From Ignavibacteriales bacterium (GTDB taxonomy: Bacteria > Bacteroidota > Ignavibacteria > Ignavibacteriales > Ignavibacteriaceae): DNA of 64,000 bases. The notes beneath the pieces are model-generated. The model ran no database searches. It had not been told where the DNA came from and was given only the letters and a program-made list of their open reading frames with translations. Where the stretch lies: positions 1 through 64,000 of the forward strand of contig JAGUYG010000078.1 of NCBI GenBank assembly GCA_020061465.1, read 5' to 3'. The first letter of the stretch is position 1. Each line of letters begins with the position of its first letter. This document shows positions 7,240 to 31,390 of the stretch, piece after piece. Both the position numbers and the translations under genes were made by a program.

Positions 7240-9693
7240 TTGAAAAAGTATACCCATATAAAAGAATTATACAGTCTCATTACAGTTTTATTTACTGCGA
7301 TAGTTCTAATCGTATTTAATTCTATTAGGCTTGCGATTGACGATACAGCAGTTAAAATTTTTGACAGAATAAAAAGTGAAACCCAACCGGATAGTAACAT
7401 CGTTCTCATCCACATTACAGATCATGATATTCAACAGATTGGCGGCTGGCCAATCAAACGAAGTTATTATGCACTGCTTATAAAAAATCTTTCCGAACTT
7501 GGTGTGAAGAAAATTGGCTTGGAAATTTTTTTAAGTGCGAAATTTGTGACTCAGACTGTTTACGATAATTTGCTCAAACGGGAAATTGAAAAAGCAGGCA
7601 GCGTAGTACTTAGTTCCTACGCAGCAAAAATAAGCTATGAAAATGGAAATTATTACAGCGATTCATTGAGCTTTCCAAGTCCTAAACTTCTTAACGATAA
7701 AATTATAACCGGACACCTTAATTATATCGAAAATGGCATACTCAAAGTGCCATTAATTGTGCATTCAAACGGAATTGAAGAACCGGCTTTTGCGGCTGCC
7801 CTTGCGGATATCAAATCCTCAAATTATCCTGCTGCAATGGAGCTTAACTTTATATCTTCCTGGAATAAATTTAGAAATTACAGCTTACTCGATTTTTTTG
7901 ATTTGCTGAATAAGCAGGATGAATCTCTTACGCTGCTTAAAAATAAACTAGTAGTGATTGGTTTGAGCAGCGAACAATATTCGGTAAAAATTAAATCATC
8001 TTATGATAACTTTATTCCAGGTATCGCACTTCATGCATTCGCTGTAGATAATCTGATAAACGGGAGATTTTTCAATTCCAATTTTTATAATTCATCGGCT
8101 GTAATTTTCATTATATTGATTTTATTATCTCCAATGCTGAAGAAGTTGAATTTAAATCTTACACCGATCTCAACTTCCGTTTTACTGCTGATTGTTTTTA
8201 TGATTATCTCTTTTTCTGCTTACAGTTATCTGCATTTAAGATTAGCTAATTCCTTTTTTATCCTGCCGTTATTTTTTCGGTTAATAACTGATGCCGGATT
8301 AAACTTTGCAAGACACAAAGCCCGTTTAAAGGACGTTGAAAACGAGAGCGAAGTATTAAAGAAACTGCTTCATTGGAAAGAGATGGAACTGGAAAATCTT
8401 CAGAAAGAATTAGATGTAACAGGTGATAGTGAAACTTCAGTTTTAGTTTCAAAAATCCGATCGCTTAAAGAAGATATTGAAAAGTTAAAATCAAACGAAG
8501 ACGACAAAATAAGTATTGAACCGGCAGCTCCGGATTATGTGCAGAACTTTCATGGAATAGTTTATAAATCCAAAGCTATGAAACAGATAACCGAGATTAT
8601 TGAAAAAACTGCGCCGGAAGATGCATCTATTTTAATACTTGGCGAAAGCGGTACCGGAAAAGAATTAGCCGCAAAGGCAATCCATACATTGAGCAGGAGG
8701 AGTTCAGAAAATTTTGTTGCGGTAAATTGCGGTGCACTGCCCGAAAATCTTTTGGAGAGTGAATTGTTCGGTCATGTTAAAGGATCTTTTACAGGCGCCG
8801 TAAGCGATAAAGAAGGACGATTTGAAGCGGCAAATAATGGAACAATTTTTTTAGATGAAATTGCCGAAACTTCCGAAAATTTTCAGGTTAAACTTTTACG
8901 AGTGGTGCAGAGCGGAGAATTCGAAAGAGTAGGTTCTTCAAAGACAATTCACGTTGATGTAAGAATTATTGCAGCAACTAATAAAGATCTTGTTGCAACT
9001 GTAAAGGAAAGAAAATTCAGGGAAGATTTGTACTACCGCTTAAACGTAATTCAAATGGTACTGCCTCCGCTGCGCGAACGAAAAGAAGATATCCCCGCTT
9101 TGGCTTCACATTTTCTGCAAAAAGAAAATTCGACATTTAAGATGTCAAAAGCGTTTCTGGATGCTTTATCAACTTATAATTGGAAGGGGAATGTGAGAGA
9201 GCTTGAATCGGTAATAAAACGTGCAGCTATCTTTGCCAAAACTTCCGGCAGGAGTGTACTTCAAACAATCGACCTGCCCGATGAAATCAGAAAAAAGGTT
9301 AAATATAATTTTGAAGATTTAGTTCTTGATTCACTGCGAAACAAAAAGTTTTCGCACGCATCAATCAATGAAACGGCAAAAGAGCTTGGTAACGTAAGCC
9401 GTACATTAGTTTCAGAAAATTTTAGAGGATTGGCGCTTAAGGAATACATCGAAAGAAACCGGGATATAAATAAAGCCGCCGAAGCATTAGCAGGAACAAG
9501 CCAAACGGAAGTTATTGAACGAACACGCAGCAAACTGCAAAAATTAATTGCTAATATTGAAGCCGATATTAAAAGTTCGGGTGTAGATAATTTGGAAGCT
9601 TTAAAGCTCAAACACGCCTCGAAATACAAAAACCTCCCGCAAAAATTTCATTATTATCTTGATGAAGTGATTCGGGATTTTATTCATCGATAG
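7240..9693 (+). CDS. Membrane-bound sigma-54 activator with CHASE2 sensor domain
   Basis: This 817-residue protein should sense an extracytoplasmic signal and activate sigma-54 RNA polymerase. In order: transmembrane segment about 14-33; CHASE2 domain about 35-280; further transmembrane segments about 285-300, 308-330 and 336-350; coiled coil about 355-420; AAA+ sigma-54 interaction domain about 440-665. Walker A is GESGTGKE (468-475). The sigma-54 loop is GSFTGA (515-520) instead of the usual GAFTGA, and Walker B is GTIFLDEIAE. A helix-turn-helix-like segment at about 706-735 is followed by an unusual extra tail of about 80 residues. There is no receiver domain. The start is TTG; no in-frame ATG is available upstream. 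Its target is unknown, though the outer-membrane protein gene just downstream has a weak sigma-54-like site. Confidence 0.85.
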   Translation: MKKYTHIKELYSLITVLFTAIVLIVFNSIRLAIDDTAVKIFDRIKSETQPDSNIVLIHITDHDIQQIGGWPIKRSYYALLIKNLSELGVKKIGLEIFLSAKFVTQTVYDNLLKREIEKAGSVVLSSYAAKISYENGNYYSDSLSFPSPKLLNDKIITGHLNYIENGILKVPLIVHSNGIEEPAFAAALADIKSSNYPAAMELNFISSWNKFRNYSLLDFFDLLNKQDESLTLLKNKLVVIGLSSEQYSVKIKSSYDNFIPGIALHAFAVDNLINGRFFNSNFYNSSAVIFIILILLSPMLKKLNLNLTPISTSVLLLIVFMIISFSAYSYLHLRLANSFFILPLFFRLITDAGLNFARHKARLKDVENESEVLKKLLHWKEMELENLQKELDVTGDSETSVLVSKIRSLKEDIEKLKSNEDDKISIEPAAPDYVQNFHGIVYKSKAMKQITEIIEKTAPEDASILILGESGTGKELAAKAIHTLSRRSSENFVAVNCGALPENLLESELFGHVKGSFTGAVSDKEGRFEAANNGTIFLDEIAETSENFQVKLLRVVQSGEFERVGSSKTIHVDVRIIAATNKDLVATVKERKFREDLYYRLNVIQMVLPPLRERKEDIPALASHFLQKENSTFKMSKAFLDALSTYNWKGNVRELESVIKRAAIFAKTSGRSVLQTIDLPDEIRKKVKYNFEDLVLDSLRNKKFSHASINETAKELGNVSRTLVSENFRGLALKEYIERNRDINKAAEALAGTSQTEVIERTRSKLQKLIANIEADIKSSGVDNLEALKLKHASKYKNLPQKFHYYLDEVIRDFIHR

Positions 9694-9943: not shown

Positions 9944-9959
9944 TGGCATAAAGATTGAG
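9944..9959 (+). promoter_or_regulatory. Weak candidate sigma-54 (-24/-12) promoter
   Basis: The sequence TGGCATAAAGATTGAG matches the -24/-12 layout (TGGCAC, five bases, TTGCW) with the invariant GG. It has GA instead of GC at the -12 element and T instead of C after TGGCA. It lies about 50 nt before the start at 10008, and the gene upstream encodes a sigma-54 activator. The -12 mismatch makes this tentative. Confidence 0.25.
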
Positions 9960-10007: not shown

Positions 10008-10928
10008 ATGATTAAAAACATTCATTTTAGTTCATTATTAATTTTCTTCTTAGTCCTCTCATTCAACTCAATCGTTTTTGCTCAAGATACTACAGATACG
10101 GATTGGGATTGGGATGACTGGAAAGATACAACCAGTTGGGGCGATTGGAATGATTGGGATTTTGATATCCACTTTGGCTTGGATTTTATGCAACCTTCCA
10201 TCTCTCTTAACTATGGCTTCTCGAAAGTTCAACGGAATGACATGTCCGAAAAATTTGCTAAACCAAATCTTGTTGAAGTTAAGCTTGGATATACCTACCA
10301 GGACAGCTATAAAAAAGCATCTAACATAATTAAATACCGTTACAGATATTTTCATCTAAGCAATATTTCAACCGAGTTTACCGAGAAGGGAAAAAGCAGC
10401 CTTGATCTAAAAACAAATACATGGCGATTCGGATTTGGACGTTCGAACGGATACGGATACAGCCTTGGTCCGGCTGCAATCATTCCTTATACTTCATCAA
10501 CATTCGATTGGAGCAGAATTGAATTCAACCGCGCACCGAATAAGCTCGAAGAAAAAAATATTACAGATTTATACCATGAAGCTTTCCGCTTCGGAACAAG
10601 TTATGAAGGCGGTGTAAGAGTTCAAGTAATTCCTCAGTTAATGCTTGAAGGCGGTTATGAAAGATCAATTGTGTTTGAACGTCACTTATTTTGGAAATGG
10701 TTAGGCAGCTTCGCAATTGAAACCGGTGCCCACTGGCTGTTGGATGAGTTCATAGAAAAAATATTGCAGTCATCTCCGTACGCAGGTCCCGTAATAAATG
10801 CCGTATTGAAGAGTGCATTAGCTTACGGTATTTATGAGCTGCGGCAGGAAAAAATGAACTGGCCTTTTGAATCATCCGCCCCCATTGCATTCGATCAAGT
10901 TAAATTTGGTTTGACATTTGTATTTTAA
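10008..10928 (+). CDS. Putative outer-membrane protein with Trp/Asp-rich N-terminus
   Basis: I do not recognise a named family. The 306-residue product has a signal peptide of about 25 residues ending VFAQ. The mature N-terminus (about 27-55) is built almost entirely of Asp, Trp, Thr, Gly, Asn and Lys, for example DTDWDWDDWKDTT and WGDWNDWDFD. Alternating aromatic strands follow (YTYQDSY, IKYRYRYF, WRFGFGRSNGYGYSLG, MLEGGYERS) and the chain ends in a terminal Phe (KFGLTFVF), as beta-barrels do. An outer-membrane barrel is therefore inferred. The start is well supported by an AAGGAG Shine-Dalgarno 7 nt upstream. The gene stands alone between the sigma-54 activator and a hairpin at a convergent junction. 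Confidence 0.6.
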   Translation: MIKNIHFSSLLIFFLVLSFNSIVFAQDTTDTDWDWDDWKDTTSWGDWNDWDFDIHFGLDFMQPSISLNYGFSKVQRNDMSEKFAKPNLVEVKLGYTYQDSYKKASNIIKYRYRYFHLSNISTEFTEKGKSSLDLKTNTWRFGFGRSNGYGYSLGPAAIIPYTSSTFDWSRIEFNRAPNKLEEKNITDLYHEAFRFGTSYEGGVRVQVIPQLMLEGGYERSIVFERHLFWKWLGSFAIETGAHWLLDEFIEKILQSSPYAGPVINAVLKSALAYGIYELRQEKMNWPFESSAPIAFDQVKFGLTFVF

Positions 10929-28682: not shown

Positions 28683-28693
28683 TTTAAAAGGAG

Positions 28694-28730
28694 AGGCTGT
28701 CGGATTGTGAGGGACGAAACCCGACAGCTT
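28694..28730 (+). ncRNA. Structured hairpin, copy A
   Basis: The stem GCTGTCGG (28696-28703) pairs with CCGACAGC (28721-28728), extended by an A-T and a G-T pair, around a 17-nt loop containing TGAGGG. Copy B (28980-29017) has the same plan, with its first and eighth pairs changed from G-C to A-T on both arms. Each copy is followed about 30 nt later by a micro-ORF with an identical start. Strand is taken from the micro-ORF. Whether it is an independent RNA, a leader or a repeat is open. Confidence 0.5.
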
Positions 28731-28758
28731 AAAAGGTGTTAATTTGAGGAAAAATATT

Positions 28759-28821
28759 ATGCTTAATAACTATTTTCTCAATGGTTATTTTGCAATATAT
28801 GTACCAGAAGAATTATTGTGA
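28759..28821 (+). CDS. Micro-ORF A, 20 residues, starts MLNNYFL
   Basis: A 20-codon frame reads MLNNYFLNGYFAIYVPEELL. GAGGA lies about 10 nt before the ATG. Its first 20 nt, ATGCTTAATAACTATTTTCT, are repeated exactly at 29044-29063. Both frames lie after matching hairpins. Downstream of the shared start the two copies diverge, so either the start region is what matters or they are remnants of longer genes. Translation is unproven. Confidence 0.35.
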   Translation: MLNNYFLNGYFAIYVPEELL

Positions 28822-28979
28822 TTTTGAACTTCGGTAAAAGTTCCGGAAGTCTCTTTTTAAGAATATGAATTAATTGGTTTCTTATTGATACATTTAACCA
28901 AGTGTTTTTTTAGGCATAGTCAATCAGGCTAATAATAATAAACTATATTGAGTGAAATATTCATTGGGTTTAAAAGAGG

Positions 28980-29017
28980 AACTGTCGAGCTCTTGAGGGC
29001 GTCAGAACTCGACAGTT
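28980..29017 (+). ncRNA. Structured hairpin, copy B
   Basis: ACTGTCGAG (28981-28989) pairs perfectly with CTCGACAGT (29008-29016), with a flanking A-T pair, around an 18-nt loop that again contains TGAGGG. Upstream flanks are also alike (TTTAAAAG then purines in both copies). The compensated differences from copy A suggest that the structure itself has been kept. Confidence 0.5.
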
Positions 29018-29043
29018 ATGAGAGTCATTATTGGAGGGGTGCT

Positions 29044-29088
29044 ATGCTTAATAACTATTTTCTATCTCGTTTATTGTTTCCCAACTAA
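29044..29088 (+). CDS. Micro-ORF B, 14 residues, starts MLNNYFL
   Basis: A 14-codon frame reads MLNNYFLSRLLFPN, with GGAGGGG about 6 nt before the ATG, a strong ribosome site. It shares its first 20 nt exactly with micro-ORF A. The remaining spacer to nadA (29089-29240) is AT-rich with long T runs and a hairpin-like CGGTAATTATTACCG (29156-29170). Confidence 0.35.
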   Translation: MLNNYFLSRLLFPN

Positions 29089-29240
29089 TATGCCATTTAG
29101 TGGAAGTGGTTTTTTGCAGTTTTTTATAATTTTTTTTAACTTATAAAAAAATCATCGGTAATTATTACCGAAGACTCCGGACGAAATTACTGAATGACTG
29201 AATAAATACTATTTGAAATAATTATGACGGAGGATTAGCA

Positions 29241-30185
29241 ATGATATTAACGGATTATAAGACAGAGATCAACTTTAGCGAAGAGATTTTAAAACTTAAG
29301 AGAGAATTGAATGCTGTTATCTTAGCTCATTATTACCAAGAATCTGAAATTCAAGATATTGCCGACTTTGTGGGAGACAGCCTCGAACTTGCCCGTAAAG
29401 CTAAAGAAACGGATGCAGAAACAATCGTGTTTGCAGGAGTACATTTTATGGCTGAAACGGCTAAAATCCTTAATCCTAATAAGCCTGTGATTATTCCCGA
29501 TTTGGAAGCGGGCTGTTCGTTAGCAGATAGTTGTCCGGCTCCGCTCTTCAAAGCATTCAGAGAAAAGCATCCCGAGCACATTGCAGTTACCTATATCAAT
29601 TGTACGGCGGCGGTAAAAGCCTTAAGCGATATCATTTGTACCTCAAGCAACGCAGAAAAAATTATAGTACAAATACCCGAAGATAAACCAATCCTTTTTT
29701 CACCCGATAGAAATTTAGGCAAATACTTGATGAAGAAAACCGGGCGGAATATGACGCTATGGGATGGAACATGCGTTGTGCACGAAACTTTTAGCGAACG
29801 AAAAATAATTGAATTGAAGTTAGAATATCCCGAGGCTAAAGTAATTGCCCATCCCGAATGTGAAGATCCGGTGCTTAAGAGAGCAGATTTTATCGGGTCG
29901 ACAAGTAAGCTGCTAAAATTTATCCAGGAAGATTCAGCAACTGCTTACATAGTTGCTACTGAGTCGGGTATAATTCATCAGATGAAGAAGGCAAGACCTG
30001 AAAAGAATTTTATCCCTGCGCCGCCGGATAAAAATTGCAGTTGTAATGAATGTCCATATATGAAACTAAATACGATGGAAAAGCTTTATTTGTGTATGAA
30101 GAACAAAGAACCTCAAATACATTTAGATGCCGAAATGATACGTAAAGCCTTAATTCCGATTGAGCGAATGTTGGAGCTGAGCTAA
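29241..30185 (+). CDS. nadA: Quinolinate synthase
   Basis: NadA condenses iminoaspartate with dihydroxyacetone phosphate to quinolinate, an early step of NAD synthesis, using a [4Fe-4S] cluster. The 314-residue protein has [15 protein letters not shown] and MAETAKIL. Its probable cluster ligands are Cys92 (EAGCSLAD), Cys178 (DGTCVVHE) and one of Cys266, Cys268 or Cys271 in the [10 protein letters not shown] segment. HPEC (204-207) and STSKLL complete the signature. GGAGG lies about 8 nt before the start. Its stop overlaps the convergent histidine kinase stop by 4 nt. No nadB or nadC is next to it. Confidence 0.95.
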
Positions 30186-31390
30186 ATTTTCTTTAAGGTA
30201 ATTTTAAAAACTGTCCCTTCACCCGGAATGGAACTTTTTACGGATATTTTACCTCTGTGGTAAACCTCTATAATTCTCTTTGAAAGACTCAACCCTAATC
30301 CCCAGCCTCTGCGTTTTGTGCTGTAGCCCGGTCTGAATATATCTTTTCTTCTTTTAATGTCGATCCCTTTACCGTTATCGAAAACCTCGATTTCAACTTT
30401 CTTGCGGAAATCTTTAATCGATATCGAAATTTTTCCGTTATCTTGATCAATGGCATCAAGAGCATTTTTGATGAGATTTTCGATTACCCACTCGAATAAT
30501 TCAGAGTTCAATTTTGCTTTAGCTTCCCGATCACCATTTACCGTCAGCTCAACATTTTTTCCTGTTTGAGGAAGACGTCTCTGGAAATACTCTGTTACGT
30601 TTATAATTTCATCGTAAACTATTTTCTCTTTAATTTCAGGCGCCGAACCAATTTTTGAGAATCGGTATGTAATCTTATTTAGCTTTTCAACATCACTGCT
30701 AATCTCCTCGGAAATATCTAACACTTTGTCTGCTTCATTGTAGTTTAGTTTTAGCATTTCGAGCCAGCCCATCAAGCTGGAAATCGGTGTTCCGAATTGA
30801 TGTGCGGTCTCCTTAGCCATTCCCACCCAAATGTTGCTTTGTTCGCTTCTCTTTATATTGCTGAAACCGATATAGCTTATTAACACAAATAAAACCGCAA
30901 TGATAATTTGCAGATAAGGATAATATTTCAATTGATTAATTAAATCCGAATCACCGTAATGAATTTTTTCGAGTATAATTGAATCTTGATAAGTTACAAC
31001 AATAGGGTCGTGCACAGCATCCATTTCATCGATTTTATCGATAAAAAATCTCTCCAATTCATGACGGGAAAGAGAAGAATCAAATCTTACGTTCCGAATA
31101 GAAGTTATATCGTTAAGATTGACTTTATCTTCCGCATCGGTAAGTATTAACGGAAAATCAATCGGTTTAATGATGTTTTCAAAAAGGAAGGTTATATCCG
31201 TATCTTCTGCTGAAGAATTAGCAATATATTCAATACCCTTTGCATAAAGTTGAACTATCTGCCTTTCCTTTTCCTGCAGCTTCTTTACTAATTGTTGTGT
31301 ATAATAGAGAGTTCCCCCTGCAATCGTGACAGCAATAAAAATAAGGAATATCTTAAAATTGATTGATGCCGGTCCGCCAGACATCTTCAT
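30182..31390 (-). CDS. Membrane sensor histidine kinase
   Basis: This 402-residue kinase has transmembrane segments at about 12-31 and 159-176, enclosing a periplasmic sensor region of about 125 residues without a recognisable fold. The dimerisation helix carries the phospho-acceptor His197 in [15 protein letters not shown]. The ATPase domain shows the N box [11 protein letters not shown] (Asn309), DNGKG (338-342) and [13 protein letters not shown]. The HQFGTP context is a known variant of the usual HEIRTP-type H box. No response regulator gene lies nearby, so the kinase is an orphan here. It is 63 nt downstream of purA and may be read from the same transcript. Confidence 0.9.

Follow-up and report, generated by a model that had tools for sequence, protein, structure and literature searches.

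The two tandem copies

The window analysed here is a 64,000-nt stretch of an Ignavibacteriales contig. Between a T9SS gene and nadA it holds two short hairpins, each followed by a tiny open reading frame (ORF), which raises the question of what these elements encode and on which strand. The initial annotation reported two hairpins with a shared 20-nt block, and we find both in place and laid out as it described. In copy 1, GCTGTCGG (28696-28703) pairs with CCGACAGC (28721-28728) around a 17 nt loop. The stem of copy 2 (28980-28989/29008-29017) encloses a loop of 18 nt. Within the core 8 bp, pairs 1 and 8 are G-C in one copy and A-T in the other. The identical block, ATGCTTAATAACTATTTTCT, occurs only at 28759 and 29044 (0.04 expected from shuffles), and the plus-strand frames from these positions run for 20 and 14 codons. 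A search of the same genome for CTGTCG...CGACAG hairpins found none elsewhere.

We consider it probable that the locus carries two tandem sigma-54 small RNA (sRNA) genes on the minus strand, whose RNA would pair with target mRNAs at their ribosome-binding sites and block translation initiation without Hfq. The features are as follows (window coordinates, strand, description):

28683..28780, minus: predicted sRNA copy 1, ~98 nt, ends approximate (covariance-model match, E 5e-7; geometry)
28683..28695, minus: U/C-rich tract 3' of the copy 1 hairpin, minus-strand sequence CTCTCCTTTTAAA
28696..28728, minus: predicted terminator hairpin of copy 1, TCCCTC in the minus-strand loop (stem pairing, covariation)
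28746..28754, minus: degenerate C-rich segment of copy 1, TTTTTCCTC
28759..28821, plus: apparent ORF of 20 codons without conservation, in part the complement of the 5' half of the sRNA
28792..28806, minus: putative sigma-54 promoter of copy 1, TGGTACATATATTGC (motif match)
28970..29069, minus: predicted sRNA copy 2, ~100 nt, ends approximate (covariance-model match, E 6e-15, this copy being in the training set; promoter-to-terminator geometry)
28969..28979, minus: U-tract 3' of the copy 2 hairpin, minus-strand sequence CCTCTTTTAAA (conserved A-rich block beside the stem in the plus-strand profile)
28980..29017, minus: predicted terminator hairpin of copy 2, loop with GCCCTC (stem covariation)
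29033..29039, minus: anti-Shine-Dalgarno segment of copy 2, rich in C (minus-strand CCCCTCC)
29044..29088, plus: apparent ORF of 14 codons without conservation, in part the complement of the 5' half of the sRNA
29081..29095, minus: putative sigma-54 promoter of copy 2, TGGCATATTAGTTGG (window motif matches, family motif count)
29157..29169, no strand assigned: palindrome GGTAATTATTACC, 5' of the copy 2 promoter, tentative candidate activator site
30182..31390, minus: orphan histidine kinase gene (HATPase_c 1e-20, weak HisKA)

Copy 1 appears to be the diverged copy, with its C-rich motif partly lost.

Distribution of the element

The nadA-upstream regions of relatives follow the same plan with altered sequence: a stem with a GAGGGC loop, a GGAGGG block, then CAAnnnnnTGCCA. 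A first covariance model, built from 22 such regions, matched the two window copies at the E-values listed above; the better of them, copy 2, was in its training set. Of 109 good genomes of the order, 94 carry the element according to a second model, built from 60 copies; they represent 49 of 56 genera, and a genome usually has one copy or a tandem. Beyond the order, family f13, from the same class, is the only one in which the covariance search gave clear matches; three weak ones lie elsewhere in the phylum. The carriers to which a pattern search gave names are Ignavibacteria, among them Melioribacter and Stygiobacter electus, a cultured species; the same pattern also gave one match each in some unrelated genomes, probably by chance. 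None of 4227 Rfam models gave a relevant match to the window or to 11 relatives on either strand, and our literature search found no papers on Ignavibacteria sRNAs.

In the clade of the window the copies often come in tandem, and one of the two has frequently lost a loop motif, as copy 1 has in part, which suggests that the targets of the two have diverged. A third, diverged relative lies elsewhere in the same genome (G000:C119:87990-88074; L221 991-1075). Its second hairpin has 11 bp and a C8 run in the loop, it has a sigma-70-like promoter match (TTGATT-N17-TAATTT), and it adjoins a gene that resembles a universal stress protein by eye, without a family search. In loci L205-L213 (family f2, genus g50), two or three tandem copies lie near a dCMP deaminase gene. 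Several dispersed sRNA copies there have sigma-70 promoters and no upstream C-rich stretch.

Strand and promoter

Two copies are insufficient to prove covariation of the stem, but the whole family does prove it. The plus-strand alignment has 148 double-change cells in the stem vs 49 in shuffles. In the minus-strand alignment, 98.6% of the cells are paired, with 105 double changes vs 33 in shuffles. The earlier suggestion that selection acts on an RNA structure here is thus borne out across the family. Written in plus-strand letters, the non-Watson-Crick cells of the stem are 14 A-C/C-A vs 2 G-T. The former are G-U wobbles when read on the minus strand, and the RNA is therefore the minus-strand one.

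The promoter motif points in the same direction. Reverse-complemented, the CAAnnnnnTGCCA block reads TGGYAY-N5-TTG, and 50 of 60 copies have this motif on the minus strand, compared with 0.2% in shuffles and 0 on the plus strand. The strict motif is absent from the other 10, and it occurs on the far side of the hairpin in 4 of the 60. On both strands of the 64-kb window there are three matches, an unremarkable total, two of which fall exactly on the two copies. The -24/-12 spacing equals that of the Vibrio qrr1 promoter, TGGCA-N7-TGC (PMC10162802). RpoN is encoded in 40 of 41 genomes, including that of the window. At the dispersed paralogues of family f2, and at one of f1, TTGACA-N17-TAAGTT-like sigma-70 promoters stand in the same geometry, which is independent evidence for the direction. 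Together, the sigma-54 promoter and the terminator-like hairpin place the predicted transcript on the minus strand, opposite to the reading of the initial annotation.

Upstream of the copies, TTCTCAA words are enriched (16 copies vs 3 expected), with TTCTCA concentrated at positions 64-68 nt 5' of the -24 element. These words and the palindrome GGTAATTATTACC are tentative candidates for activator sites. The third promoter-motif match of the window (9944-9957, plus strand) is 3' of a gene whose product joins a CHASE2 sensor to a sigma-54 activator domain (7240-9693, plus strand) and 51 nt before an ORF at 10008.

Two other structural readings were rejected. A pseudoknot between the loop and the 3' block (GGC with GCC) is contradicted by the independent variation of loop and partner, and the 3' block is the promoter. 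A plus-strand promoter at TTTAAAA shows no -35 conservation, and its sequence is the U-tract.

The apparent peptides

The two copies also prompted the suggestion of a family of small peptides or leaders, which would be translated from the ATG on the plus strand, and in the window and its close relatives a strong Shine-Dalgarno-like motif does stand 5' of ATGCTTA..., with short hydrophobic products. Across the family, the ATG after the G-rich block is absent in 32 of 59 copies; thus the element is not a leader peptide. The conserved TTAAA(A)CTATTTTC block itself contains one-nucleotide indels, TTAAAACTATTTTC, TTAAACTATTTC and TTAATAACTATTTTC, that shift the frame between MLKTIF, MLKLF and MLNNYF, and ORF lengths range from 1 to >50 codons, so that no ORF is conserved among the copies. 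The covariance search of related Ignavibacteria did recover further copies that keep the pairing. A peptide-pattern search in relatives gave no hairpin among the matches listed, which were those on the plus strand. We regard a peptide family as extremely improbable. The apparent ribosome site and ATG are there on the plus strand because they mirror the anti-Shine-Dalgarno and anti-start stretch of the sRNA; the conserved parts make sense solely on the minus strand. A separate 11-codon ORF starting MLNNYF is found in the same genome (L025 1501-1533; G000:C93), ending near the start of the next gene. It has no such hairpin upstream and is probably unrelated.

Genomic context

The element adjoins both the T9SS gene and nadA in the window, as first noted, but these are mere neighbours. 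In families f1 and f3, and in some genomes of f13, the histidine kinase gene and the element are separated by nadA. In f2 genomes the element adjoins the kinase gene with no nadA between. The orphan histidine kinase adjoins the element, or the nadA beside it, in most loci across the order, and in minus-strand order the kinase gene is 5' and the sRNA gene 3'. A nadA remnant of 63 residues (41% identity, one internal TAA) lies between element and kinase at L072 1769-1957.

Control of nadA by a plus-strand cis-regulatory RNA, i.e., a riboswitch or leader, initially looked strong, for the element is 5' of nadA on the plus strand in ~25 genomes (f1, f3, some f13), sometimes in tandem, and the NAD+-I riboswitches, named for nadA, are also tandem (PMC7297122). 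Nearly all f2 genomes and several f1 genomes (L072, L075, L076, L118) nevertheless keep the element at that site with no nadA beside it, and the nadA genes that f2 genomes carry elsewhere (L054, L055) lack the element. Together these rule out a nadA-specific role. The promoter and the wobble pairs also indicate the opposite strand, and Rfam gave no match, which leaves such control very improbable. Also rejected was 6S RNA, for which the matches were weak, below cut-off and at other places.

The constant kinase neighbour bears on a further alternative, in which a minus-strand sRNA mainly titrates a protein or acts on the neighbouring kinase and does not pair with Shine-Dalgarno sequences. Among the unpaired motifs the terminator loop GCCCUC varies least, and the upstream C-rich stretch is missing in some paralogues, both of which would fit this alternative. 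A CsrA sponge was rejected, however, because CsrA is absent from the genome of the window and from several other carriers, and the minus-strand loops are C-rich, not GGA. C-rich loops are a documented signature of Shine-Dalgarno-binding sRNAs (PMC4132741), and we judge titration or action on the kinase unlikely.

The predicted RNA and its action

If it starts ~12 nt beyond the promoter and ends at the U-tract, the predicted RNA has a length of ~80-105 nt in most copies. Its minus-strand consensus is ...CATAnCAnCCCTCCTT..., then the terminator-like hairpin with GCCCTC in the loop. The C-rich consensus, CCCTCC...GCCCTC (minus-strand alignment A5), corresponds to CCCUCC(UU) in a single-stranded stretch and GCCCUC in the terminator loop. 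The motif is weaker in copy 1, which like several other tandem copies has partly lost a C-rich motif, and the upstream stretch is missing from the dispersed f2 paralogues. The terminator loop (~11-18 nt) is above the usual size, and the U-tracts are often interrupted. A hairpin around the GGAGGG/CCCUCC block, the upstream C-rich stretch, is clear in some clades and in the third copy of this genome (11 bp) but has weak support overall (swap control 49/2000).

With CCUCC the RNA carries the reverse complement of the Shine-Dalgarno core, and it therefore looks made for masking ribosome-binding sites; in the clade of the window, GCATCCCTCC would mask a start codon too. A Shine-Dalgarno-like motif precedes 14 of the 44 long ORFs in the window, against a background of 8%. 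Duplex energies for window genes are illustrative only. A pattern search of this assembly for the 16S 3' end gave no match. No Hfq scored above cut-off in the 25 genomes of relatives searched.

In the minus-strand sRNA model, RNA polymerase with sigma-54 and an enhancer-binding activator would start each transcript ~12 nt past TGGYAY-N5-TTG(C). The 5' half of the transcript would be variable and partly folded and would expose a C-rich stretch, ACCCUCCUU. At the 3' end an intrinsic terminator hairpin would carry the second C-rich motif, GCCCUC, in its loop. Both motifs complement Shine-Dalgarno sequences, and the stretch of the closest relatives complements the start codon as well. Base pairing with the ribosome-binding sites of target mRNAs would then block initiation independently of Hfq. 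A bolder and more doubtful version is that the order-wide, Hfq-independent family acts as a broad translation brake in a lineage with partial Shine-Dalgarno use, the two anti-Shine-Dalgarno motifs binding many ribosome-binding sites under the control of the adjacent histidine kinase.

If the model holds, the Ignavibacteria gain a near-universal family of small regulatory RNAs that Rfam lacks, whose sigma-54 promoter is recognisable and whose constant neighbour is a histidine kinase. Post-transcriptional regulation would become directly testable in an Hfq-poor, mostly uncultured group, e.g., in the cultured carrier Stygiobacter electus. The locus also illustrates that the wrong strand of an anti-Shine-Dalgarno RNA gene can pass for a ribosome site and a tiny gene.

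Comparison with known systems

The NAD+-I (nadA motif) riboswitch also has tandem units beside nadA (PMC7297122). The element differs from it in lying on the opposite strand, in its structure, in being kept without nadA and in having no Rfam match. The hairpin loops of the CcsR or cuckoo RNAs of Alphaproteobacteria are C-rich, as in the element. These too are tandem homologous sRNAs, but they have an RpoH promoter and are processed from a precursor shared with a DUF1127 gene, whereas here there is one putative promoter per copy (PMC10253847).

The LhrC sRNAs of Listeria are multicopy, ~100 nt long and controlled by a two-component system (PMC4132741). The element resembles them in copy number and length; two-component control is suggested here solely by the neighbouring kinase. 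It differs in its sigma-54 promoters and in its phylum. We detected no homology to LhrC in the search of Rfam, which may include no LhrC model, and the resemblance is one of design. The Qrr sRNAs of Vibrio differ in sequence; Hfq was not detected in the relatives searched, and quorum sensing is not implicated here. Like the element, they are short genes, often several per genome, with sigma-54 promoters of TGGCA-N7-TG(C) spacing (PMC10162802). The element is most likely a family of trans-acting sigma-54 sRNAs, with an LhrC-like action and a Qrr-type promoter.
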